DNA of 40,230 nt from Methanobacteriota archaeon (GTDB lineage: Archaea > Thermoplasmatota > Thermoplasmata > SG8-5 > JACRNV01), in NCBI GenBank assembly GCA_016214785.1, contig JACRNV010000026.1, forward strand, positions 1 to 40,230, given 5' to 3'. The notes beneath the pieces were generated by a model, which did not search any database, was not told the DNA's origin, and saw only the letters and a list, made by a program, of their open reading frames with translations. Both the position numbers and the translations under genes were made by a program. Position 1 is the stretch's first letter, and every line of letters begins with the position of its first letter. Positions 2,648 through 14,093 of the stretch are shown piece after piece.

Positions 2648-3730
2648 ATGCCGGACCAACCCTCGCCCGTAGCCCTCATACACAACCAGAACCACGTGAT
2701 GCACAGGTCGGACTCCACAAGCCCGGAGGACCCCGAGCGCCTGACGAGGGTGATGCAGTACCTCTCCGGCAGGACGACGATTTTCACCGACGGGGTGGCG
2801 AAGCTCGTGACCAAGTTCCCGCCGGCGACGGACGCGGAGGTCCAGCTCGTCCACGATTCCAACTACATCGAGTTCATCAAGCGATACAGCGCGAAGGGGG
2901 GCGGCTTCCTCGGCGACAGCACGTACATCGCGCCCAACTCGTACAAGGTCGCCCTGCATGCCGTCGGGGGCGCCATAGAGGCCGCGAAATGCGTCATGTC
3001 CGGGGAGTTTCCGTCGAGCTTCGCCCTCGTGCGCCCGCCGGGCCACCACGCGAGCACCGACAGGTTCGGGGGCTTCTGCATCTTCAACAACTCGGCCATC
3101 ACAGCGCGCTGGCTGCAGAAGAACTCGTCAGCAGGGAAGGTCATGATGGTGGACTTCGACGCGCACGCCGGGGACGGAACCATGCGCATTTTCTACGACG
3201 ACCCGACGGTATTCACAATCTCTCTGCACAGGGACCCCCACGATTTCTACCCGCACGACGGCTTCACGCACCAGATAGGGACCGGGAAAGGCAGGGGCTA
3301 CTGCGCGAACATCGAGATGCCCGAGGGCTCGGGGGACGAGGAGTACATGCTCGCTTTGGAGACTATCGTCCTGCCGCTCATAGGCGAGTACAAGCCCAAC
3401 GTCCTCCTGGTCCCGATCGGCTACGACGCCCACTACGCCGAGAAGCAGACGGGGATGCAGATGACGCAGAACGGCTACTACAGGATGATATCCGCCCTCA
3501 GGCAGTTCAAGCTCCCCACCGTGCTGGTCTTCGAGGGGGGCTACAGCAAGGCCAACCCGCAGGTGACGCAGGCCGTTGTCATGGCGCTCGCGGGACTGCA
3601 GGCGCCGGCCCACAAGGAGGAGATGGACATGCTCACGGCCTCGGTCACCAGGAAGGTGAGCACCCGCGCCATCCTGAAGGACAACCTGAACGAGCTGTGG
3701 GGATTCCTCTCGGAGTACCACAAGATATAA
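2648..3730 (+). CDS. histone deacetylase / acetoin-utilisation (AcuC) family amidohydrolase
   Basis: The protein is 360 residues if it starts at ATG 2648. That start is chosen because a TATA box (GTATTTTAATG, ~2608-2617) lies ~30 bases upstream and because the longer frame back to 2552 overlaps the translin gene with a non-homologous leader. Zinc-dependent deacetylase motifs are all visible: the His pair in RPPGHHA (H133/H134), the metal ligands D171 and H173 in VDFDAHAGDG, the third ligand D260 in IGYDAHYAE, and the transition-state Tyr Y299 in FEGGYS. Family members remove acyl groups from lysine, polyamines or small amides. In archaea the substrate is usually unknown and could be an acetylated protein such as a chromatin protein, or a polyamine. 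Three GNAT acetyltransferase-like genes also occur in this window, but no direct pairing is evident. Confidence 0.9.
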   Translation: MPDQPSPVALIHNQNHVMHRSDSTSPEDPERLTRVMQYLSGRTTIFTDGVAKLVTKFPPATDAEVQLVHDSNYIEFIKRYSAKGGGFLGDSTYIAPNSYKVALHAVGGAIEAAKCVMSGEFPSSFALVRPPGHHASTDRFGGFCIFNNSAITARWLQKNSSAGKVMMVDFDAHAGDGTMRIFYDDPTVFTISLHRDPHDFYPHDGFTHQIGTGKGRGYCANIEMPEGSGDEEYMLALETIVLPLIGEYKPNVLLVPIGYDAHYAEKQTGMQMTQNGYYRMISALRQFKLPTVLVFEGGYSKANPQVTQAVVMALAGLQAPAHKEEMDMLTASVTRKVSTRAILKDNLNELWGFLSEYHKI

Positions 3731-3792: not shown

Positions 3793-4521
3793 TCACGTGT
3801 TTAACCGATCTTTTACTTTCACTACCTTTTTGACACGGCGCATTATCCATTTATCCCCTTTCATCTCCCTGAGAAACATCAGATAGATGCAAAAAACGTT
3901 GATGGATGCGATGGGCAGCGCAATGAAGATTAGAACCCCTCCGCTTTTTACTAGGGTGGCCAGTAAGAGGTAGTATGCGCCATTTGCGACGATTAAAAGT
4001 GCGCCTAGGAAATACACCATTTTCAGGGTTCCGAGCTTCTTTTTGCAATCAAGGATGAACTGGAGGATTGAATCCTTCTCGAAGTAGAGTGTCGCCATGA
4101 GGAAAAGGATGTTGTAGCAAATTAACAGAACGGGGTCATGATCCGTCGTAACAAAGAGTGGAAGCACCAGGTTGCCAATGGGAAACAATAGGTTCGGGAA
4201 ATTGACGTGCACAAACAAATCTAGAAATATATTGAGAAAAGCTCCTAGGGATGCCGGCAAGAAATAATCTCGCTTCAGGAATAACAATGGTACGAACAAT
4301 ATTATTATGAAAATCGAGTGCATGAAAGAATTGCACGAATCCAATGCGGCGATTATTTGAGGGTTGGTGTACGGAAATAGGGTTGAGAGTGACCATACAA
4401 GGATCCCGAAGGTATCCACGGATATGGCGGTGAACATCCCTATCCACTTGTTTCTCAAACGCGCGAGCCTACTGAGAAAGTAAAAACCTAGCACGTGCGG
4501 GATTCCTTCCAAAAGAATCAC
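3793..4521 (-). CDS. polytopic membrane protein of unknown function
   Basis: A 242-residue protein rich in Ile, Leu and Phe with about six hydrophobic segments, ending in a basic cytoplasmic tail (MRRVKKVVKVKDRLNT). A GTG at 4521 opens the frame. An alternative GTG at 4494 has a better-placed Shine-Dalgarno (GGAAGGA), so the N-terminus is uncertain. The arrangement MHSI, then a short hydrophobic run, then FLDLFVHVNFP and LLFPIGN loosely resembles the YdjM/DUF457 membrane metal-hydrolase family (conserved HS, LD..H and P.SN-type motifs). This resemblance is weak and I would not rename the gene on it. The gene is AT-rich compared with its neighbours, lies convergent to the deacetylase gene, and may be a horizontally acquired island. 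Confidence 0.7.
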   Translation of the reverse strand: MILLEGIPHVLGFYFLSRLARLRNKWIGMFTAISVDTFGILVWSLSTLFPYTNPQIIAALDSCNSFMHSIFIIILFVPLLFLKRDYFLPASLGAFLNIFLDLFVHVNFPNLLFPIGNLVLPLFVTTDHDPVLLICYNILFLMATLYFEKDSILQFILDCKKKLGTLKMVYFLGALLIVANGAYYLLLATLVKSGGVLIFIALPIASINVFCIYLMFLREMKGDKWIMRRVKKVVKVKDRLNT

Positions 4522-4647
4522 CCGGGGATGGTATAACCCATAATTGGAGATGTTGTTTGGTGTAGATAATCATTGTTCTTGGGGTCCATCCAAGGCTACC
4601 CCGTTGTCCATAGGTATGTTTATCTATCGCGTCGGGGATTTGGGGGC

Positions 4648-4956
4648 GTGCCCGAGCTCTCGGTCTCGCTCAACAAGATTTGGATACACAGGACGGAGTA
4701 CCTGAAGGTCGTCGAGGTTCGCGAGGGATCGAGGCAGAAGTTCTACAGCTATACGTATACGGTCAAGTCAAGGATGGGGTGGCTTCCGTGCGTGAGGTGG
4801 GACAACTACGAGCAGCAGCCCCACGTCGACAAGTACGACGAAAATGGGGCCCTGCTCGAGCAGCGCCCTTGCCGTGAGAAGGAGCTCGCCGAGGTGGTGA
4901 AGCTGGTGAAGATATTCAGGAGGAACCTGTCCGCCATGGACATCTCCCAGCTCTGA
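4648..4956 (+). CDS. TumE-like (DUF6516) toxin candidate
   Basis: The protein is 102 residues from GTG 4648. This start fits a TATA element (GTTTATCTA, 4618-4626) ~22-30 bases upstream and a G-rich ribosome site. The frame stays open back to a TTG at 4573, but that leader spans the promoter. The body, with YSYTYTVKSRMG, the acidic-aromatic VRWDNYEQQPHVDKY and a C-terminal helix KIFRRNL, matches the compact DUF6516/TumE fold as I recall it: a beta-rich protein with a conserved RxDN..pH stretch, found next to an HTH antitoxin. The family has been assigned to type II-like toxin-antitoxin pairs. The exact biochemical target is not something I can state. It ends 9 bases before the HTH partner, which supports a two-gene operon. 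Confidence 0.6.
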   Translation: MPELSVSLNKIWIHRTEYLKVVEVREGSRQKFYSYTYTVKSRMGWLPCVRWDNYEQQPHVDKYDENGALLEQRPCREKELAEVVKLVKIFRRNLSAMDISQL

Positions 4957-4965
4957 GGGAACGGC

Positions 4966-5409
4966 ATGAAAATAGAGATACTCAAGCACTACAACCCCGA
5001 GGACGTCCAGGGGGAGCTGGCCAGGCTCGCGGCAAGGTACGGCTCCCTGGACGGGCTCGCGCACAAGGCCTCGATAGGGAAATGTGGCTCGCCGGATGTC
5101 GTGGACAACCTGGTCATCTGGCAAGCGCTCTCGGCTCCCGGGACGGACGTCATTTGGAAAGTCTCGTTCGAGAGCGCGGAGGCCGTGGCCAAGATATCCC
5201 CCAAGAGGCTGGAGCTCCTTGAAATCATAAAGAAGGCGCGGATCGCGTCCCTGAAGGAGCTCGCCGCCGCGGCCAAGCGCGACTACAAGAACGTCTACGA
5301 CGACGCAGTCGCCCTCGAGGAGTGCGGGCTCATCGTCCTCGAGGCCAACGGGCGCAGGATGCGCCCGACCCATGCCGCTGACGAGATGAAAATGACATTC
5401 GAGCGCTAA
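4966..5409 (+). CDS. HVO_A0114-like winged-helix regulator / antitoxin partner
   Basis: A 147-residue protein. Residues ~78-125 (ISPKRLELLEIIKKARIAS, then LKELAAAAKRDYKNVYDD and ALEECGLIVLE) are the typical winged-helix of the HVO_A0114/MarR-like DNA-binding proteins. These often follow a DUF6516 gene. The N-terminal half has a VIWKVSFESAEA stretch common in the same family. A GAGGGA ribosome site precedes the ATG. Role by context: antitoxin and autorepressor of the pair with the upstream gene. An alternative is a plain transcription factor. Confidence 0.7.
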   Translation: MKIEILKHYNPEDVQGELARLAARYGSLDGLAHKASIGKCGSPDVVDNLVIWQALSAPGTDVIWKVSFESAEAVAKISPKRLELLEIIKKARIASLKELAAAAKRDYKNVYDDAVALEECGLIVLEANGRRMRPTHAADEMKMTFER

Positions 5410-5447
5410 GGGTATTTTACCAAAAACACCATAATGACAAACTCAGA

Positions 5448-5520
5448 CGTAAATTTTATAATTTACATTTTACGCCATAATTGTTTTTTCGACCATTTTT
5501 CGCGAAATGTATATAAATAT
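5448..5520 (+). promoter_or_regulatory. promoter and operator-like palindromes of the KaiC/CheF-like cluster
   Basis: An AT-rich 150-base gap precedes the eight-gene cluster. It has an excellent TATA box (TATATAAATA, 5510-5519), about 40-50 bases before the first ATG at 5561, giving a leader of about 20 bases. Upstream lies a nested dyad. GTAAAT at 5449-5454 and ATTTAC at 5461-5466 flank TTTATA. In addition, CGTAAA at 5448-5453 pairs with TTTACG at 5469-5474. The position just upstream of the TATA box suits a regulator-binding site. Confidence 0.55.
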
Positions 5521-5560
5521 GAATGACGATTAGGTCATCGAAAAGGCCCGAGGCTAGCAA

Positions 5561-6085
5561 ATGAAGGCTCACAAGTACGAGGACGTGCAGTTCATCATCA
5601 GCCAGAACGGCGATGGCGAACCGACGCTCAATCTCGTATGGAAGGAGGGCGGGCTCTTCCTCTCCCTGAACGGCTTGATTCTGAACGAGGGGGACATGTG
5701 GTACGAGATACCGGTGTCGGACCTCGTGAACGTCAACGTCATCAACGAGGACCCGCTGCAGCTCCGCTTCACGGTCCCATCGCTCTCCGTCGTGATAACG
5801 GGCAAGAGGGCCGAGCGACTCCTGGCCCTGAGGCACTTCCTCCTGCCGTACATCGGCCCCAAATCGCAGAGGGACGGCATGAAGGCGCTCATCAAGTTCT
5901 GGGCCGTGGGCGTTCATGGCGCGGATATACTGTCGAAGCTCCTCGGAGAGGACTCGGCGCACGTGGTCTCTCTCGTGGAGAAGTGCAGGAGGGAGGGTTA
6001 CATAGACAGGAACGACCACGTCTCGGAAACGGGGCTCGCCCTCCTCAAGCCCAGCGAGAGGCGCCTGCTCGAGAGGTTGGATTAG
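5561..6085 (+). CDS. CheF-like PH-fold plus winged-helix protein (cluster gene 1)
   Basis: A 174-residue protein. Residues ~8-100 look like a PH-like beta barrel closed by a helix: alternating strands WKEGGLFLSLNGLIL, MWYEIPVSDLVNVNVI and LSVVITGKRAERLLALRHF. Residues ~105-170 form a winged helix (MKALIKFWAVGVHGADILSK, VVSLVEKCRREGYIDR). This order matches archaeal CheF (DUF439), the adaptor that links the CheY/CheC/CheD taxis system to the archaellum motor, although CheF is usually about twice this length. No archaellin, ArlF/G/I/J or che genes are in the window, so a direct role in motility is not supported. The gene ends in TAG directly followed by the ATG of the next gene, indicating translational coupling. 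Assignment is by pattern only. Confidence 0.6.
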   Translation: MKAHKYEDVQFIISQNGDGEPTLNLVWKEGGLFLSLNGLILNEGDMWYEIPVSDLVNVNVINEDPLQLRFTVPSLSVVITGKRAERLLALRHFLLPYIGPKSQRDGMKALIKFWAVGVHGADILSKLLGEDSAHVVSLVEKCRREGYIDRNDHVSETGLALLKPSERRLLERLD

Positions 6086-6982
6086 ATGCCCAGCGAGCTC
6101 AAGTACGGCAGCTTCGCCGAGGCGATGACCGTCCTCGGGAACCTCACGAAGATAGAGGGCGCGGTCCAGATAGCGATCAAGAACAGCCGCATCCCGCCGA
6201 AGGAGACGAGGAAGCTGCTAAAGTGCTCGACTTCCGACGAGGCGATGAACACGCCCATTTTCCAGTACCTCAAGGAGCTCTTCAAGCAGATCGGCCTCGG
6301 CAACATCGAGCTCGGGGACGCCGAGATATTCAGGTTCTCCTTCGTCGTCGACCATTGCCCGATATGCAAGCTCTACCCCGGGGTGAAGGGCAAGGTCACG
6401 TGCTACGTCACCGCCGACACGCTCGCCCAGTTCTTCACGAAAGACATGGGCATCCCCTCCACAGCGGAGGAAGTCAAGTGCACGAATCACGGAGACAAGG
6501 CTTGCGAGTTCTCGGTCTCGCTGCAACCCCTGTCGGTATACCAGATGGCCCTCGATGCCACGGACAAGAAGATAATCTCCACGCTCATCGAGAAGAAGGA
6601 AACGACCTCGATCGCCGATGCATTCAACCTATCCCCGGAGGAACTCGCTTACAGGATGGACGTGCTGAGGCGCTACCACATCCTTGACGATAACCGCGCC
6701 CCCACGGAAATCGGGGATACCTACTGCAAATACGTCCAGAACTTCCCGGTCGAGGACGACGATTTCCAGCCGCCGTGGCACAACATGTCCAAGGTATCCG
6801 GCGCTATATCCGCCTCTATGTCGTTCGCGGAGGCCTTCTCGGAGACGGCCGAGGAGGACGCACAGCACGACTTGAGGGAGAAGGACGTGGTGAACCTCGC
6901 GGAAAAAGCTAAGAACAGCAAGAGCTTTGCGGAGTTGGTTTCGAAAAACATCCTGAGCACAGATGACAGCGGAGGGAAGTAG
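6086..6982 (+). CDS. V4R-domain sensor with winged helix (cluster gene 2)
   Basis: A 298-residue protein. Residues ~60-148 carry a V4R (4-vinyl reductase) small-ligand domain with its cysteine set: CPIC (C91, C94), C106, C132 in VKCTNHGD and C140 in KACEFSV. V4R domains bind small hydrophobic or tetrapyrrole-like ligands and often metal, and they commonly feed HTH or signalling output. Residues ~158-212 look like a winged helix (KIISTLIEKKETTSIADAF, then LSPEELAYRMDVLRRYHIL). The last ~70 residues are acidic, Ser/Ala-rich and probably flexible. It starts on the base after the upstream stop codon, so the two proteins are likely made in fixed ratio. By inference this is the input sensor of the module; the ligand is unknown. 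Confidence 0.75.
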   Translation: MPSELKYGSFAEAMTVLGNLTKIEGAVQIAIKNSRIPPKETRKLLKCSTSDEAMNTPIFQYLKELFKQIGLGNIELGDAEIFRFSFVVDHCPICKLYPGVKGKVTCYVTADTLAQFFTKDMGIPSTAEEVKCTNHGDKACEFSVSLQPLSVYQMALDATDKKIISTLIEKKETTSIADAFNLSPEELAYRMDVLRRYHILDDNRAPTEIGDTYCKYVQNFPVEDDDFQPPWHNMSKVSGAISASMSFAEAFSETAEEDAQHDLREKDVVNLAEKAKNSKSFAELVSKNILSTDDSGGK

Positions 6983-6983
6983 C

Positions 6984-7862
6984 ATGGAACGAATAAAGAC
7001 TGGCATATATGGGCTCGATCAGCTGATCGAGGGCGGCGTCAGGGACAACACCGCGATAGTCATCGCGGGCTCGAGCGGCACTGGAAAGACCACATTCGCA
7101 ATCCAGTTCCTGATGCACGGCGTCGAGAACGGCGAGCAGGGGCTCTACGTATCCATGGAGGAGTCGCCCGAGCAGATAATGAAGGAGGCTGAGCAGATGG
7201 GGTGGGACATGAAGTCCCACTACGAGAAGTCCATCTTCTTCATCCACCTCAAGGGGAAGAACTTTAAAAAGATGATAGAGGAGCAGCTCCCGCAGCTAGT
7301 CAAGGCCCGCAGCGACTATGACATACGGACCAGGGTGGTCATAGACCCGATGACGCCGGTCATATGGGCCACCGAGGACAAGCTCCAGCAGCGCGAGCTC
7401 ATCGGCAAGCTCTTCTACACGCTCAAGGAGCTGGGCGTCGTCATGGCAACGGTCGAGGAACACTCCAAGCCCGGCGAGCTTATCGGGGCGGACGTTCTGC
7501 TGCCGATATACCTGGCCGACGGCGTCATAGGTCTGGACTACTACCCCATTGGAGGGGCGTTCAACCGCACGCTCAAGATAATCAAGATGAGGGGGACGCA
7601 CCACGGCGAGGGGCTCTACCCGTACATCTTCGTGAGGGGCATCGGCGTCGTCGTGAGGACTTCGCCCGGAGATACCACCGTCAAAGGAGAGCCGAACAAG
7701 GACTTCAACGCCATCTTCGACGAGGCCATCAAGACCGCGGAGTTCATCAAGGCGCCCGCCTACGTCGTGGCCAAGCTGAAGAACATGAAGGCGTCATGGT
7801 CGTACGAATACTCGCCCGAGGAGGCGCTTCAGGTCATCTTCGACTCTTACGGGTTGAAGTAG
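6984..7862 (+). CDS. KaiC-like RecA-superfamily ATPase (cluster gene 3)
   Basis: The protein is 292 residues from ATG 6984, preferred over ATG 6963 because GGAGG lies at 6971-6975. It is a single KaiC domain. Visible motifs are the opening KTGIYGLDQLIEGGV, Walker A GSSGTGKTT (29-37), the paired catalytic acids in VSMEES (E59, E60), a Walker B strand RVVID (117-121) and the KaiC hallmark KMRGTHHGEGLYPY near 201-214. Single-domain KaiC proteins include ArlH of the archaellum and many archaeal signalling ATPases that assemble as hexamers. The ~70-residue C-terminal extension after VRTSPGD is less typical and may dock partners. Tight neighbours (CheF-like before, roadblock-like after) suggest it is the ATP-driven core of this cluster. 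The start overlaps the end of the preceding frame only if ATG 6963 is used. Confidence 0.85.
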   Translation: MERIKTGIYGLDQLIEGGVRDNTAIVIAGSSGTGKTTFAIQFLMHGVENGEQGLYVSMEESPEQIMKEAEQMGWDMKSHYEKSIFFIHLKGKNFKKMIEEQLPQLVKARSDYDIRTRVVIDPMTPVIWATEDKLQQRELIGKLFYTLKELGVVMATVEEHSKPGELIGADVLLPIYLADGVIGLDYYPIGGAFNRTLKIIKMRGTHHGEGLYPYIFVRGIGVVVRTSPGDTTVKGEPNKDFNAIFDEAIKTAEFIKAPAYVVAKLKNMKASWSYEYSPEEALQVIFDSYGLK

Positions 7863-7871
7863 GGGAGATGC

Positions 7872-8663
7872 ATGGAGCCAAAGAAGAAGATAGACAAGAC
7901 GCTGGACGCCAAGAACGCCAACCTCCTGAAGCACATGCTTGAGATGGAGCTGCGCAGGATGAGCGAGGGGACCGGCATCGACATCACCTTCTTCATGGCC
8001 GTCGACGGCAGGATGCTCTCATCGTACGTGCCGCAGACGCTCTCGGCGCTGCAGTTCAGGTTCCTGAACCTCGTGAAGGCCAACATACCGTACATGTGCG
8101 GTCAGCTGGACGCGGAGAACCTCAAGATCAGCCTGCAGCAGTACAAGGGAGGGATGATAATCATCTCCGGCGTGGGGAACAAGGCGTTCCTCACGTCCAT
8201 CGTCGCGCGCGACGTCGAGATTGTTGACGCGGCCGACATCATCAGGAAGGTGCAGAAGAGCAGCGCCGTCATCAGGCACCTCTACGAGGTCAGGCCCATG
8301 ACTCCCGAGGCGATGGCGGGATACGAGCCCGAGGTCACGGAGGAGCTGAAGAAGCTCAGCCGGCTCCTGTTCGTGGAGAAGTTCGAGGAGACGCGCGAGT
8401 ACAAGCGCAACCAGGACATCCTCGCCGACATGAAGAAGAAGATAGGGACGGTCGTCGGCGTCGGCCAGATAGAGGAGATAGTGACGATAACGTTCAACGA
8501 GATAGGCACCTCGTTCGCATACATGACGAAGGAGCAGTGGATGCGCTTCCTGGACACCGTCATAAATCAGCACATCAGGAAGCTCAGGGGGGACATGGTC
8601 GCGGACGAGTGCGCCAGGACGTGGACCCCGGATCTCGATAGGAGACTCAAGACGTTCATGTGA
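7872..8663 (+). CDS. roadblock/LC7-like two-domain protein (cluster gene 4)
   Basis: A 263-residue protein that I cannot assign with certainty. Residues ~35-130 have the strand-helix pattern of roadblock/LC7 or longin-like modules: an opening strand ITFFMAVDGRMLSSYVP, a central amphipathic helix, paired strands ISLQQYKGGMIIISGVG and AFLTSIVARD, and a closing helix. Residues ~145-263 form a second, mostly helical domain (EELKKLSRLLFVEKFEETREY, VGQIEEIVTITFNEIGTSFAY). Roadblock proteins regulate P-loop NTPases of the Ras/MglA type, so pairing with the KaiC ATPase nine bases upstream would make functional sense. That link is inference. There are no Cys clusters and no membrane segments, so it is likely cytoplasmic. 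Confidence 0.55.
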   Translation: MEPKKKIDKTLDAKNANLLKHMLEMELRRMSEGTGIDITFFMAVDGRMLSSYVPQTLSALQFRFLNLVKANIPYMCGQLDAENLKISLQQYKGGMIIISGVGNKAFLTSIVARDVEIVDAADIIRKVQKSSAVIRHLYEVRPMTPEAMAGYEPEVTEELKKLSRLLFVEKFEETREYKRNQDILADMKKKIGTVVGVGQIEEIVTITFNEIGTSFAYMTKEQWMRFLDTVINQHIRKLRGDMVADECARTWTPDLDRRLKTFM

Positions 8664-8670
8664 GGTACAA

Positions 8671-10647
8671 ATGAAGGGAAAGGCTGCGAGGCGGAGGTCG
8701 GCTGCGCGGGACGAATCGGGGGAGGCGGACGGCACGCCCTCGATACAGCTGACGTGCGACCTCTGCGGCAGGGTATGCAGGGACGAGCGGCTCCTGAAGA
8801 TCCACCAGAGGAACTGCAGGGGCGTCGAGCCGCCCGAGGAAGGCAAGGACACCGTCCAGGTGGTCCGCGCGATGATGGCCGCGTTCGAGGACGACCGCAG
8901 GGAGATGCTCAGGTTCATGGCGGACAGGGACGAGAGGCTGATGCGCACTATGGAGGCCAGGCAGTCCCCGGAGCCCGCGCAGCCGTCCGGGCCGCACCCC
9001 GGCATCGAGGTGGGCACAATGCCACCGCCACAGCCGCCAACGCCGGCCCATGCCGAAAAGCCGCAGGCCGGGAACGGTAGCAAGGGTTCTGCAATCCCAA
9101 CGATTTCCAAGGACGAGCTGAAGAAGCTCGTCGAGGAAGAGATGTCTTCGCATACCCCTGACAACCGCGCGATGGAGGAGAAGGTCTCCTCCGAGATAAG
9201 CAACGTGATGGCCTGGGCGCAGGGCAGGCTCTCCGAGCAGGAGGCGCGCGTGAACGAGCTCGCCGCGAAGCTCGAAGAGCTCGTCGACAACCGCAGGTTC
9301 TCGTGGATGGCCAAGAACGTCGACAAGCTCGACAACCGGCTCGATTCGGTCATGGACGAGATAGGGTACGGCGAGATTCTCGACGTTTCAAAGATACCGC
9401 CCAACATCCTCGAAATCGTCTACCAGACGACGCTCGAGGACATCGTGCGCGAGATGGGCAAGACCCGCAGCGCGCAGGAGGTCGGCTCCATCGTCGAGCA
9501 GACGCTCGAGGACGTGCGGAGGAACACGAGCGGCAGCGAGCTCTTCGAGTACAACGGCAGGAAGCTGACTACCAGGGGCCTGGCAAAGACCGTCGAGCAG
9601 GGGCTCATCTCCGCCAAGCAGGTGCAGACCACTTACAGCGAGCTGCTCACCAAGCTGCTCGAGCGTGTGCCCGAGTACAAGCCGAAGAACTTCCAGGCGA
9701 TGATAAAGATCAAGAGCCAGGAATACGCCGTCGACATGGTGACGCAGTTCATCGGCAGGATGGACCGCATGGAGAGGGCCATCGACAACTTCAGCCAGAT
9801 GGTCGCCGCGCTCTCCTCGCAGACGGCCTCGCGCTACATGCAGGTCAAGGAGAGCGCCGACGCGCTCTCAAAGACCATCGAGGGCAAGGCCGATACATCA
9901 TCCTTCGAAGACATGAGGATCAAGATAGAGCAGCTCTCGAACGAGGTCAGCAGGCTGTCGGCCAAGGTGGAGCTATCCGCAGGCGTGGCAGAGCCCGTCG
10001 TGGAAGCACCCATGCCAGCGGTCGAGGAACTGGTTTCGGAGCCTCCCGCACCTGAATACTCGGAATCGGAGAAGCTCGTCATCTCGAAGCTCTCCGGGAA
10101 GGAGCTTTCGGAGAGCGCCCTGAAGAAGGGCGTGGAGAGCTTCGTCGGCGCAGTGGAGGCCAAGGCGGCCATTGCCTCGCTTGTCGAAAAGGGAGTCGTT
10201 GAAATCCACAAGAGCGGCAAGAAGAAGAGGTACAGGCTCGTCGAGCGCGAGCCGGAGGCCAAGCCGGGGGAGATAGCCCCCGTGGACGAAATGGCGGCCG
10301 GGGAAACGAGGCCCGAGCACAGCGGGACGGAAGGTTCCGAGCCCGAGGGCGTGTCCGAGGACGCGCAGCCATCCGCAACCATAGAAGCGGAGGTCGAGCC
10401 GCCTAAGGAAGAGGAGGGCTTCACCGTCACCGAGTTCGAGGCCCGGGTGCTGGAGGCGCTGGGGGAGGGCGCGACGACGCAGCAGATCCGCGGCAAGCTC
10501 CCGGACCTGAAGTACACGGAGGTACTGAAGGCGTTGCGCGTGCTCATCGACGCTGGCCTTGTGTCATCGGAGACGAAGGGGAGGAGCACGCGCTATTTCA
10601 CGGTCGATAAGGGACATAGAAACGAGGAGGTGAAAGAAGATGCTTGA
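8671..10647 (+). CDS. zinc-finger, coiled-coil, double winged-helix scaffold (cluster gene 5)
   Basis: A 658-residue protein with a clear modular plan. A short zinc finger comes first: C29-x2-C32, H45 and C49 within CDLCGRVCRDERLLKIHQ. A Pro-rich linker covers ~97-140. Long helical and coiled-coil stretches follow (145-435) around a conserved-looking core (ILDVSKIPPNILEIVYQTT, and YNGRKLTTRGLAKTVEQG). Two winged helices close the protein: ~466-524 (ending KSGKKKRYRLV) and ~584-646 (ending TKGRSTRYFTV), separated by an acidic linker. It could be a transcription factor or a scaffold that gathers the cluster proteins on DNA. It starts 7 bases after the previous stop and overlaps the next gene by 8 bases. 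I know no named family with this full architecture. Confidence 0.7.
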   Translation: MKGKAARRRSAARDESGEADGTPSIQLTCDLCGRVCRDERLLKIHQRNCRGVEPPEEGKDTVQVVRAMMAAFEDDRREMLRFMADRDERLMRTMEARQSPEPAQPSGPHPGIEVGTMPPPQPPTPAHAEKPQAGNGSKGSAIPTISKDELKKLVEEEMSSHTPDNRAMEEKVSSEISNVMAWAQGRLSEQEARVNELAAKLEELVDNRRFSWMAKNVDKLDNRLDSVMDEIGYGEILDVSKIPPNILEIVYQTTLEDIVREMGKTRSAQEVGSIVEQTLEDVRRNTSGSELFEYNGRKLTTRGLAKTVEQGLISAKQVQTTYSELLTKLLERVPEYKPKNFQAMIKIKSQEYAVDMVTQFIGRMDRMERAIDNFSQMVAALSSQTASRYMQVKESADALSKTIEGKADTSSFEDMRIKIEQLSNEVSRLSAKVELSAGVAEPVVEAPMPAVEELVSEPPAPEYSESEKLVISKLSGKELSESALKKGVESFVGAVEAKAAIASLVEKGVVEIHKSGKKKRYRLVEREPEAKPGEIAPVDEMAAGETRPEHSGTEGSEPEGVSEDAQPSATIEAEVEPPKEEEGFTVTEFEARVLEALGEGATTQQIRGKLPDLKYTEVLKALRVLIDAGLVSSETKGRSTRYFTVDKGHRNEEVKEDA

Positions 10648-11266
10648 CGTTGCCTTGGTGTCGCTCATCCAGGACATGAGCGAGAAGGCCGGAGTGGAAG
10701 GGACAATACAGTACTGGGCTAGGGTAGGCGAAAGCCTGGCGAAACGGATGGGAAAGGAGGCGTACATGGGATGGCCCTCTTTCAACGTCGCGCTCAGGGA
10801 AGGAAGGACGGCGTTCTCCATAGAGGGGGACGTGAGCGCCCTGACGGACCTGGCGATAACGGACGTTGACGGGGACGTAGTGGGGTACATCTACGCGCTG
10901 AAGGTGTGCGTCTTCGACCCGACCATCGACAGGATACGGTACAGCGTTGGGTCATTGCCCAGCGCCGACCGGGCAGTGGCGGAGGAGTACAACAACAGCG
11001 TGCGAAACACCGCCGTCTGCAACTTCTGCGTGATACACCAGAGGTTCAGGGAGGAGGTGGCGAAGAACATCGTCATCGCCGACCAGCCGCTCGACTGCCT
11101 GCAGCTGGCGAACAGGGGCTATACCGGCGAGACCAAGATAGCCGAGGACAGCCTGCGGAGGATAAGCATAGACCCCGAGTACGTCAGGAGCCTGCTCAGG
11201 AACTATGCATGCGTCTACGCGATACTGATGAAGGGGGCCAGGCTGCGCGGAGAGGAGGCTGAGTAA
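10640..11266 (+). CDS. unknown Cys/His-motif protein, paralogue A (cluster gene 6)
   Basis: A 208-residue soluble protein of no family I recognise. It is paralogous to the next gene. They share AEEYNNSV/AEYYNATV, the motif CNFCVIHQRFRE (here C127, C130, H133) against QCIIHQTFRK, and a C-terminal LLRNYACVYAIL against ILRNNACVWILY. The Cys/His content hints at metal, heme or redox-cofactor binding, and V4R-like sensing domains have comparable cysteines. That is only a hypothesis. The N-terminal ~70 residues are helical and amphipathic. The ATG lies inside the end of the scaffold gene (ATGCTTGA overlap), so translation is probably coupled. Confidence 0.75.
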   Translation: MLDVALVSLIQDMSEKAGVEGTIQYWARVGESLAKRMGKEAYMGWPSFNVALREGRTAFSIEGDVSALTDLAITDVDGDVVGYIYALKVCVFDPTIDRIRYSVGSLPSADRAVAEEYNNSVRNTAVCNFCVIHQRFREEVAKNIVIADQPLDCLQLANRGYTGETKIAEDSLRRISIDPEYVRSLLRNYACVYAILMKGARLRGEEAE

Positions 11267-11267
11267 G

Positions 11268-11885
11268 ATGAAGGCATCGCAGAGAAAGGCGCTGAAGGAC
11301 GACAACCCGTTCGTGGACGTGGCAGCGTACCTGTTCCTCGAGGACATCGCGGACAAGCAGGGCGCCAGCGGGATGAACAACTACCTCGTGAGCCTCGCGA
11401 CGTCGCTGGCGAACAGCATGCCTGCGGAGGAATACGACACCTGGGACCAGTTCGTCGACTCCCTGCAGAAGGGCGAGTCCATCATAACGACCTTCGAGAC
11501 TATCATCATGGCGACGTCGAACTGCGTGGTCACGACCGAGTGCCCGTTCGAGAAGGGCTGGCAGGAGTACACCAAGCGCATAGGCTCGTTCTCGAAGATA
11601 CACTACGAGGTGGCTGAATACTACAACGCCACGGTGAAGCCGGGCGCGAGCGACTCCCAGTGCATCATCCACCAGACCTTCAGGAAGGCCGCCGCGGAGC
11701 GCATAAAGGTAGGGGGGAAGGTACTGAGGTACGCGCAGGTCGCGGCCGTCTCCCCGGGGAGCAACAAGACCGTCGCCCCCGACGAGTGGCTGCCCATACT
11801 GCTGGCGAAGTCCGGCATCTCGCACACGATGCTGAACATGATACTGAGGAACAACGCCTGCGTCTGGATACTCTACACAGAGTGA
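11268..11885 (+). CDS. unknown Cys/His-motif protein, paralogue B (cluster gene 7)
   Basis: A 205-residue paralogue of the preceding protein, starting one base after its stop codon. Conserved elements are HYEVAEYYNATV, the C132/H135 motif in SQCIIHQTFRKAA, and the C-terminal ILRNNACVWILYTE. It carries two extra cysteines in NCVVTTECPFEKG (C86, C92). One of the two CxxC-type cysteines of paralogue A (C127) is absent here, so the copies have diverged. Side-by-side retention of two diverged copies suggests a heterodimer. No membrane segment or signal peptide is present. Confidence 0.75.
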   Translation: MKASQRKALKDDNPFVDVAAYLFLEDIADKQGASGMNNYLVSLATSLANSMPAEEYDTWDQFVDSLQKGESIITTFETIIMATSNCVVTTECPFEKGWQEYTKRIGSFSKIHYEVAEYYNATVKPGASDSQCIIHQTFRKAAAERIKVGGKVLRYAQVAAVSPGSNKTVAPDEWLPILLAKSGISHTMLNMILRNNACVWILYTE

Positions 11886-11903
11886 GTCCGGAGGAGGCCC
11901 CGT

Positions 11904-12482
11904 TTGAGGGAGCTCAGGCGGTGCGGCCCCCACGCTTACCTCAAGCTGGAGGACGCCGGAGAGGTCGGGCTCTTCGCCGTGCGAGGGGAGATGGACGACT
12001 TCTCCCCACCCGGCGGCGGGTTCGAGTTCTTCAGGGGGCTGGGCATCATCGGGTACGCCAACACGTTCAAGATATGGCTCAGGAAGTTCCCTCGCCCCAT
12101 ATTCATCGTGTGCGCCGAGAACAACCAGATAATCTCCTGGGTCTTCATCGAGGAATGGCCCGAGATGGCGCGCGACGGCTCCCCGGTCTGGGTCCTCAGG
12201 GCGATAGAGACGCTGCCGTCCTTCAGGAAGCGCAAGATCGGCTACAGGCTCCTCCTCCTCGGCCTGTCGCAGACCGTCGGCTACCTGATAACCAAGCCCC
12301 TGACAGCAGACGCGGACCGCTTCTTCAGGCGCTCGGGTTTCATGGACGAGCGCGAGTTCAGGAGCCTGCCCATGGACCTGACGAAGCACCCGGGATACCT
12401 GATACTCCCGCCGTTCAGGAAGACTAAGCTGATGACCGAGATAGACCGGTACTTCATACCTGCTGGGAGCCCTGAGGCTTAA
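11904..12482 (+). CDS. GNAT-family N-acetyltransferase (cluster gene 8)
   Basis: A 192-residue protein with a TTG start at 11904, supported by a strong GAGGAGG ribosome site at 11891-11897. The central strand-loop-helix AIETLPSFRKRKIGYRLL is the GNAT acetyl-CoA pyrophosphate-binding region (basic R/K-x-x-G-x-x-L type), followed by LTADADRFFRRSGFM, the usual last strand of the fold. The acceptor is unknown. As the last gene of the cluster it may acetylate a cluster protein, which is inference. A hairpin 55 bases downstream probably ends the transcript. Confidence 0.75.
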   Translation: MRELRRCGPHAYLKLEDAGEVGLFAVRGEMDDFSPPGGGFEFFRGLGIIGYANTFKIWLRKFPRPIFIVCAENNQIISWVFIEEWPEMARDGSPVWVLRAIETLPSFRKRKIGYRLLLLGLSQTVGYLITKPLTADADRFFRRSGFMDEREFRSLPMDLTKHPGYLILPPFRKTKLMTEIDRYFIPAGSPEA

Positions 12483-12535
12483 GTTCCAAACCCCTTAACT
12501 TCTCTTGGTAGTGCAGCTAAAGACTAAAGTAAAAA

Positions 12536-12566
12536 ACCTCTACGATTTTCATTTCATCGTGGAGGT
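12536..12566. terminator. hairpin between convergent genes
   Basis: ACCTCTACGAT (12536-12546) pairs with ATCGTGGAGGT (12556-12566), 11 pairs including one G-T, around a 9-base loop. It is flanked by an A-run on the left and T-rich sequence on the right. It sits between the ends of the plus-strand cluster and the minus-strand winged-helix gene, so it may terminate both. Confidence 0.6.
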
Positions 12567-12608
12567 CTCGACATTTTATTTAAGGTGTTAATCCTTTTTC
12601 AGCGTGAT

Positions 12609-13739
12609 TCAGCCGTCCTCGGGGCTGGCCGGCGGCGCTATCGCCTCCTCGTTCCTGCCGAGGAATTCGGCGCCCTGCGGCGTTAGCTCGAGTATCAGCC
12701 GCGAGCCGTGGCCGTTCTTTATGCCCAGGGCCTTGCATCCCACCGACCTCTGGTTGATGTACTGGCTCTCCTCGAGCCGCGCGAGGATGTTCCTGAACTG
12801 GGACGCCGAGCGGCACTCCATCTTCCTCCGCTGGCAGAGCTCCTCGTACATGGTCTGGAGCTCGATGGCCATCACCGGCCTCCCGTTCCCAGTCAGGTGC
12901 CTGAGCGCGTAGAGCATGAGCAGCTTGTGGCGCGTGGCCTCGCGGACCTTCTCCCTCGAGCCCCTCTCAATCCCGGGTGCGCGCCTCTGGACGACCACGC
13001 CCGGCGTCGCCCTCTGGCTCCCTGCGAGCAGGATGAGCAGCCTGTCGACCTTCGAGTTCAGCGAGTCCAGGTTCATGGAAAGGGTCTTGATATGCGATTC
13101 GAGGCGGGGAATAGCGGCAGAACCTACGTCATCTCGGAGGAGCGGCGGCGCTTCCGTCCGATGATTTGCGTGCCTGACCACGGGCTGGGGGCGCTCCTCG
13201 ACCTTTATGGCGCCTGCGCGGATCTTCTCCAGCGCGTCTACGCCCCTGTTTGTGATTTTGTAAAGCGCGACCTCGACAGGCTGGCCGTCCCTCTGCGCGA
13301 CGTGCTTTCCGCGCTCCAGGAGGCCCACCGCGGCGAGGCTGCCCAATGCGCCGTTTATCGAATTGTACCCCTTTCCCGTCTCCCTGCGCACGAAGCCGGG
13401 GGTGAAGTTGCCGCCGTGCGTGCCGTTCGTGAGCTGCTCCTGCGCGATCTTGAGGACTTCGGCCTCGAAGGGCGATATCGCGGAGGGCGGTGCGCCGTTC
13501 GTGCCATGTCCGAGCCTCAAGGCCGCGTCGGGGGAGAGGACGAGGACGTTCCTGCCGTCGGAGAAGTCCTTGCGGACGATGCCGTCCCTCTCGAGGTTCT
13601 CCGCAATGCCCGTCAACTTTTCCCGGGGGATGTCCAAGGCCTTGGAAAGCTCCTCGATGCTTATTCCCCTGCCGCTGAGGTTCTGCGCGGCGTGGATAGT
13701 GTTTATTATTGTTTTTTCAGTATCGGTGGCAATCTCCAT
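12609..13739 (-). CDS. three-winged-helix DNA-binding protein with Cdc6-like C-terminal domain
   Basis: A 376-residue protein. Residues 5-70 are a winged helix (ISIEELSKALDIPREKLTG, then ENLERDGIVRK). Residues ~90-178 are a second one (EVLKIAQEQLTNG, SLAAVGLLERG, YKITNRG). Residues ~210-240 form a short coiled coil, and residues ~268-352 a third winged helix (HKLLMLYALRHLTGNGRP, MYEELCQRRKMECRS, NILARLEESQYINQ). The third resembles the C-terminal winged helix of Orc1/Cdc6, but the AAA+ part is absent. The protein is therefore unlikely to be a replication initiator and is better viewed as a regulator or DNA-binding architectural protein. A TATA element (TATAAATATT on the minus strand, ~13781-13792) lies upstream of the ATG at 13739. 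It converges with the KaiC cluster. Confidence 0.7.
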   Translation of the reverse strand: MEIATDTEKTIINTIHAAQNLSGRGISIEELSKALDIPREKLTGIAENLERDGIVRKDFSDGRNVLVLSPDAALRLGHGTNGAPPSAISPFEAEVLKIAQEQLTNGTHGGNFTPGFVRRETGKGYNSINGALGSLAAVGLLERGKHVAQRDGQPVEVALYKITNRGVDALEKIRAGAIKVEERPQPVVRHANHRTEAPPLLRDDVGSAAIPRLESHIKTLSMNLDSLNSKVDRLLILLAGSQRATPGVVVQRRAPGIERGSREKVREATRHKLLMLYALRHLTGNGRPVMAIELQTMYEELCQRRKMECRSASQFRNILARLEESQYINQRSVGCKALGIKNGHGSRLILELTPQGAEFLGRNEEAIAPPASPEDG

Positions 13740-14093
13740 GAAATCACCCGACTCCCTGATGTTGCTACCAATGCCGCCTCAATATTTATAGTTTGTTGCA
13801 GAATTACGATGGATGAGATTGATGGTTCCGATTGGAACATTGAAAAAAGTAAAACGAAAAAAGAAAAATGCGAAAATGACAGGCAATGAGCGGGAATAAA
13901 ATCCTAATAATAATACAGGACGAAAAACATGGGGCGATGGCCCTATTCCGACACCTTCTGTGCTAGAGCTGGGTATTCGATGAGGGGTGTGACGAATGTT
14001 GATTTCCTCATCGAAGATACGGACTTATTCAGTTATTATTTGCTTCCAATCATAAGTCCTATCCCGACACCTTCTGTTTTCAGAATATATTTA
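13740..14093. other. 354-base gap with a 10-bp hairpin and a short repeat
   Basis: No convincing gene. It contains the promoter of the minus-strand winged-helix gene, a perfect hairpin (TTCGATGAGG at 13976-13985 with CCTCATCGAA at 14006-14015), and two near-identical stretches, CTATTCCGACACCTTCTGT (from ~13943) and CTATCCCGACACCTTCTGT (from ~14060). The second is an inverted copy of the tRNA-Gly T-arm end next to it. The hairpin could belong to a small RNA, but no C/D or H/ACA boxes were convincing. Confidence 0.5.

Follow-up and report, generated by a model that had tools for sequence, protein, structure and literature searches.

A conserved KaiC-centred operon with a roadblock protein, a paralogous protein pair and a putative dedicated promoter element in uncultured Thermoplasmatota archaea

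KaiC-like ATPases are expanded in archaea, few of them with known partners, and archaeal KaiC proteins have been proposed to form signal-transduction hubs (Makarova, Galperin and Koonin 2017, as cited in PMC5847659 and PMC6393860). Here we describe an operon of eight plus-strand genes, g1 to g8, located at positions 5561-12482 of a 40,230-nucleotide stretch of contig JACRNV010000026.1 (hereafter the window) from an archaeal genome of the Thermoplasmatota (GCA_016214785.1). The operon resembles the proposed hubs in that a KaiC-like ATPase (g3) lies amid input and output modules, and differs from them by a roadblock protein (g4), the paralogous pair g6/g7, a V4R sensor with a helix-turn-helix (HTH) domain (g2) and a dedicated promoter element. 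Conservation in related genomes supports KaiC, the roadblock protein and the g6/g7 pair well as the core of the operon. Archaeal KaiC hubs as a class have already been proposed, but this architecture was found nowhere described: in the open-licence literature on KaiC with roadblock or V4R proteins in archaea we found no description of the set, in line with an earlier sequence-only reading of the window, which had recognised no described system in it. The probable V4R/TRAPPC3 fold of g6/g7, the four-gene core and the promoter element go beyond that reading.

Several other described systems share parts with the operon. The g4 protein has the roadblock fold of the MglA-MglB system and of Asgard roadblock proteins, but the NTPase beside it is of the KaiC type and not one of the Ras-like GTPases, and g4 carries an extra helical domain. 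The structural model of g6, a protein with a paired paralogue and a Cys-rich site, points to the fold of the TRAPP core and Asgard TRAPPC3 (PMC10933270) and of prokaryotic V4R domains (PMC2253512); in this case, however, the fold score is marginal, sequence similarity is nil, and the operon lacks a Rab-type GTPase or longin pair. Like PoxR/MopR (V4R/XylR_N) and MsvR, g2 combines V4R with HTH and has invariant Cys, Glu, Cys and Cys residues, but it scores below the curated cut-offs, its V4R domain precedes the HTH, and its SFAE-bearing tail is foreign to those families. Finally, cyanobacterial KaiC proteins are the closest solved structures to g3, from which they differ in domain number, phosphorylation dyad and partners.

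The eight open reading frames are separated by gaps of 0, 1, 9, 7, -8, 1 and 18 bases from g1 to g8. A stretch of 35% GC upstream of g1 holds a sequence resembling a transcription factor B recognition element (BRE) and TATA box, CGCGAAATGTATATAAA (5501-5517, plus strand), and sequence inspection found no comparable TATA in any internal gap of the operon. The close-packed cluster behind one promoter had been proposed from sequence, together with its V4R-HTH protein, single-domain KaiC, roadblock protein, zinc-finger/winged-helix protein, diverged paralogues and GNAT enzyme; the comparisons below bear these assignments out, the zinc finger only weakly.

The sequence-only reading had named gene-order conservation in relatives as a test of the cluster, and lack of it, or separate promoters with unrelated phylogenetic profiles, as its refutation; these checks did not refute the cluster. 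We scanned the KaiC protein against one genome per species and obtained 46 contigs with KaiC proteins 63-85% identical to g3, all from Thermoplasmata/Euryarchaeota-type or unspecified archaeal genomes and nearly all metagenome-assembled. Genes at these loci were mapped with the window proteins and delimited by orthologue extension. The order g1-g2-g3-g4-g5-g6-g7-g8 recurs in the related contigs, mostly with short spacers; all eight genes are present at 17 loci, and contig ends cut others. The g1 gene is missing beside the operon at four loci (L023, L025, L142 and L143), g5, the least conserved member overall, is present at 26 loci, and g8 adjoins g7 in relatives. The gap at L023 is a run of N, and the idea that this locus retains the g2 tail alone was left unused.

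The core emerges from one diverged clade of the KaiC tree, comprising 18 loci, in which no g1, g2, g5 or g8 was found next to KaiC (a single change; Shimodaira-Hasegawa-like approximate likelihood ratio support 95). At 16 of these loci KaiC, g4, g6 and g7 occur in order, three of the 16 having a partial or frame-disturbed gene. Rooting the KaiC tree by paralogues was dropped, as the branches were far too long; with an unreliable root, the tree does not decide between loss and gain of the four genes. Across 390 sampled Thermoplasmatota genomes, g4 has the same profile as the g6/g7 pair: each occurs in 13 genomes, and these are exactly the same ones. Pairwise identities of all operon members correlate (0.58-0.89), as expected under joint inheritance. 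Among 16 complete loci the mean identity is 84% for g6, the most conserved protein, versus 74% for KaiC. A chance cluster is ruled out by the conserved gene order and the shared genome profile.

Upstream of the operon we identified a putative tripartite promoter element. In relatives its consensus is CCATA-N16..18-CTG[G/T]-N21..22-CCATA, in which each CCATA closes a TTTAC-N8-CCATA repeat, and it lies 5' of g1, or 5' of g2 where g1 is absent. In the window the two direct repeats are TTTACCAAAAACACCATA (5416-5433, plus strand), a repeat type conserved ahead of the operon in 21 relatives, and TTTACATTTTACGCCATA (5462-5479, plus strand). Both are correctly spaced, with a CCATA-CCATA interval of 41 bases (41-43 in most relatives), and the CTGG centre is degenerate, so that no exact match to the pattern occurs in the window's own genome. 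The distance from the element to the BRE/TATA falls into classes of 22-23, 32 or 34-35 bases, which differ by about a helical turn; in the window CGAAA lies 23 bases past the second repeat, which fits the first class. Similarity between boxes is 0.74 within a locus versus 0.61 between loci (p=2e-4), the window pair having been entered one base out of register. The element occurs at 21 of the 24 loci bearing g2; the others are L010, which is truncated, L022, where part of the sequence is masked, and L044, which has no such element.

A pattern scan of 13 genomes found the operon match in 11, with 5 other matches in all versus 3 for the reversed control. The element is thus essentially operon-specific genome-wide, and a wider regulon was rejected, since the extra matches are near the reversed-control level. 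At the core-only loci, that is, the clade without g2 and g5, the tripartite element is absent, and full-length g2 protein was not found in eight core-only genomes. The simplest reading of these sequence patterns would be autoregulation by g2 via the element, with g5 as the alternative regulator. At four core-only loci (L029, L030, L033 and L036) an inverted repeat, GATTCC...GGAATC, lies near the TATA 5' of KaiC in its place.

The g3 protein (6984-7862, plus strand) is a KaiC ATPase of 292 amino acids with one domain and a C-terminal extension, scoring 163 bits against a curated cut-off of 26.6 (Pfam PF06745, E=1e-47). Of its 292 columns, 128 show at least 95% identity among 43 sequences, including the Walker A stretch G29-T37, E59, E60, D121 and K201-M202-R203-G204. 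In the alignment to KaiC, g3 has no Ser/Thr at the position of the CII phosphorylation dyad, and it is therefore expected to be an ATPase, not a clock kinase.

The g4 protein (7872-8663, plus strand) is, judging by its structural model, a roadblock protein despite the lack of a Pfam match: Robl_LC7 (PF03259) is not among the families listed for 37 g4 orthologues. The AlphaFold2 model (predicted local distance difference test score, pLDDT, 87) shows a helix, two strands, a helix, three strands and a helix, corresponding to a predicted roadblock/LC7 domain at about residues 10-140, followed by the C-terminal helical domain. The top Foldseek matches are Asgard roadblock3 and MglB (E about 1e-5, target template modelling (TM) score about 0.7).

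The g6 (10640-11266, plus strand) and g7 (11268-11885, plus strand) proteins are diverged paralogues with 27% identity (E=2e-19). Neither has a real Pfam match or a match to an enzyme family. The g6 AlphaFold2 model (pLDDT 90.7) has BcsD, TRAPPC3/Bet3 and the sensor domains of PoxR/MopR as top Foldseek matches (best E=3e-3, probability 0.97), with BcsD scoring slightly above TRAPPC3. TRAPPC3, V4R and AxCeSD are structurally akin (PMC10933270), and on that grouping the g6 matches point to one fold. The model suggests that g6 probably has a V4R/TRAPPC3-type fold, one that serves vesicle traffic in eukaryotes, g7 being taken along as its paralogue. Thirteen alignment columns are invariant over g6 and g7 together, eight of them within the first 53 residues; in TRAPPC3 the helical N-terminal region is the dimer interface (PMC10933270). 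All 38 g6 sequences compared share C90, C127, C130, H133 and C191, three of these residues forming the motif C127xxC130xxH133, and g7 sequences often lack equivalents. This pattern suggests that g6 holds a metal site, g7 having a structural role.

The g2 protein (6086-6982, plus strand), the candidate operon regulator, matches V4R at E=5e-7, with 30.1 bits against a cut-off of 31 in the protein scan and 33 bits, over the cut-off, in the genome search. Against the MsvR model it scores 30.9 bits (cut-off 220). Residues C106, E129, C132 and C140 are invariant in 24 sequences and presumably resemble the Zn site of MopR/PoxR, a likeness for which a PDB search gave no confirmation. The C-terminal tail contains two conserved SFAE[AL]-type motifs, and the window copy has a third near its N-terminus. 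The large g5 protein (8671-10647, plus strand) comprises a zinc-finger-like N-terminus with a weak Pfam match, a coiled coil, a conserved core at residues 232-351 and a C-terminal winged helix (E=5e-7), and g8 (11904-12482, plus strand) is a GNAT acetyltransferase (PF00583, E=5e-5, over the cut-off).

The g1 protein (5561-6085, plus strand; 174 amino acids) had been read as a CheF-like protein with a pleckstrin homology (PH) domain and a winged helix. The winged HTH (PF24409, best E=4e-7) is present in 20 of 22 orthologues and a PH-like N-terminal domain precedes it, but neither g1 nor its 21 orthologues match CheF (PF04283). CheF has two PH domains and a CheY-binding tail (PMC9126983), of which g1 lacks the second PH domain and the tail. 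Stand-alone paralogues of the g1 N-domain reach the CheF model at E=6e-4 and 7e-3, below the cut-off. The CheF label for g1 is therefore weak, a distant PH-domain link remaining. The same applies to the link to archaellum control that the sequence-only reading drew from CheF. Although the operon shares a KaiC-like ATPase and a PH-like domain with ArlH and CheF, the window's genome, 92% complete, has no match to CheF or to archaellin (PF01917), the control search for archaellin being positive in four archaea. As an interpretation, that reading stands in its roadblock, V4R-HTH and KaiC parts. Stand-alone homologues of the g1 PH-like domain (L131 1477-1791, L132 1501-1812, L133 and L134) are flanked by a long coiled-coil gene and a Kae1-type gene.

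Our preferred reading, held with moderate confidence, is that the operon encodes a KaiC-centred signalling switch, in which the roadblock protein and a g6/g7 sensor control KaiC and g2 reports to its own promoter. The g6 and g7 proteins would form a V4R/TRAPPC3-type heterodimer, with the metal site in g6, that senses a small hydrophobic ligand or the metal or redox state. MglB tunes the nucleotide state of the GTPase MglA; on this model g4 would couple the g6/g7 sensor to the KaiC ATPase and tune the nucleotide state of KaiC. The g2 protein, with a DNA-binding domain as well as V4R, would be a second sensor; it may dock on the complex by its SFAE-bearing tail and bind the tripartite element before g1, the system setting its own expression, and g5 and g1 may be additional DNA-binding or adaptor subunits. 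As the element is all but specific to the operon, autoregulation would be the direct transcriptional output. Several points weigh against this reading. The interactions, ligand, metal and DNA binding that it invokes, like its other functional claims, are ones that we infer. An entire clade of the KaiC tree lacks g1, g2, g5 and g8, which means that the core can do without a transcriptional output. One locus (L051) seemingly lacks g7, and the operon of one genome (G080) is divided between two contigs. The structural match of g6 to this fold has marginal scores (best E=3e-3; TM 0.43 by query and 0.56 by target), and hhalign of g6 against the g2 family (V4R) gave a probability of 0.4%.

The persistence of the core without these four genes also favors a module for cell organisation or membrane function of the Mgl/TRAPP/Ragulator type, in which roadblock and V4R/TRAPPC3-fold proteins would position or tether some other component, KaiC would replace the Ras-like GTPase switch and the DNA-binding genes would be autoregulatory only. 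The matches of g4 to MglB and Asgard roadblock proteins, the weak match of g6 to TRAPPC3, the PH-like domain of g1, the operon-specific element and the 11 strong Ras-like GTPase matches in the genome, several beside V4R genes, are consistent with such a module. The operon, however, contains no GTPase, no membrane anchor was noticed in its proteins, and g6 fits BcsD slightly better than TRAPPC3; we regard this explanation, the main rival, as unlikely, though credible. Quite doubtful is the more specific proposal that the core is a TRAPP/Ragulator-like prokaryotic assembly, with a TRAPPC3-fold g6/g7 heterodimer and the roadblock protein governing KaiC in place of a Ras-like GTPase. Roadblock and TRAPPC3/V4R folds figure centrally in debates on how eukaryotic traffic control arose. 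If true, the proposal would show non-Asgard archaea to have a parallel NTPase-regulator design built on these folds, with KaiC as the controlled NTPase. The Asgard archaeon MK-D1 generally keeps its GTPase genes outside the operons of roadblock/TRAPPC3-type regulators (PMC10933270).

The invariant Cys/His residues and very slow evolution of g6, the GNAT identity of g8 and the relatedness of V4R, HNOB and ATC hydrolase domains (PMC5847659) would also suit a metabolic operon, in which g6/g7 is a metal-dependent V4R/ATC-hydrolase-like enzyme and KaiC and g8 are regulators or modifiers. We judge this improbable, as g6/g7 match no enzyme family and the operon holds no constant metabolic gene. A clock-like timing system based on KaiC is very improbable: its closest solved relative is indeed KaiC, but g3 has a single domain without Ser/Thr at the dyad position, and no KaiA or KaiB gene was recognised in the operon. 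A remnant or variant of archaellum/chemotaxis control, to which ArlH as a KaiC relative and the weak CheF matches of the g1 N-domain paralogues would point, is barely credible and largely refuted already by the lack of CheF and archaellin matches in the genome and by the ArlH score of g3 (50 bits, cut-off 215). With this conserved operon, a KaiC ATPase gains named candidate partners, namely the roadblock protein and the slowly evolving g6/g7 pair, which has no Pfam family. The eight genes form a defined set with a DNA element of their own, and this makes tests of partners, ligand and DNA binding direct.

No equivalog scored over its cut-off in an NCBIfam scan, and an Rfam scan of positions 4000-14000 matched no RNA element. 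An anti-phage defence system was rejected after PADLOC gave weak generic matches only (best E=2e-4), as was a phage origin, for which matches were limited to generic RecA/DnaB-type ones for KaiC.

Among the neighboring genes, a Cdc6-C-like winged-helix protein (12609-13739, minus strand) faces the operon and was not found in the flanks of relatives. A translin-family gene (1996-2604) lies more than 4 kb upstream of KaiC in the window and is the direct upstream neighbor of KaiC at several core-only loci. The region 4648-5409, with a small TumE/DUF7718-like gene and an HVO_A0114-family gene, is toxin-antitoxin-like and occurs 5' of the operon in a dozen relatives. A histone-deacetylase-family gene (2648-3730) is found near the operon in about 10 relatives; together with the GNAT protein g8 it could provide reversible acetylation.

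The 2.2-Mb genome contains 36 KaiC-domain, nine V4R, three Pfam roadblock and eleven strong Ras-like GTPase matches. Another roadblock gene of this genome overlaps a KaiC gene, and a KaiC-like and roadblock pair lies at L107 2869-4744; that every roadblock gene of this genome lies beside KaiC is untrue for contig C34. At five relatives' loci (L016, L017, L018, L019 and L050) a second KaiC-like and roadblock pair adjoins the operon downstream of g8. Ras-like GTPase genes, including two tandem pairs, occur at L101 2495-4206 (C54), L102 2133-4514 (C67) and L111 3396-4959 (C64), with a gene for V4R, for a V4R-DUF835 fusion or for DUF835 immediately behind them, DUF835 being an inactivated KaiC domain (PMC5847659). 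This arrangement suggests that NTPases are more widely paired with V4R or roadblock proteins in the lineage.

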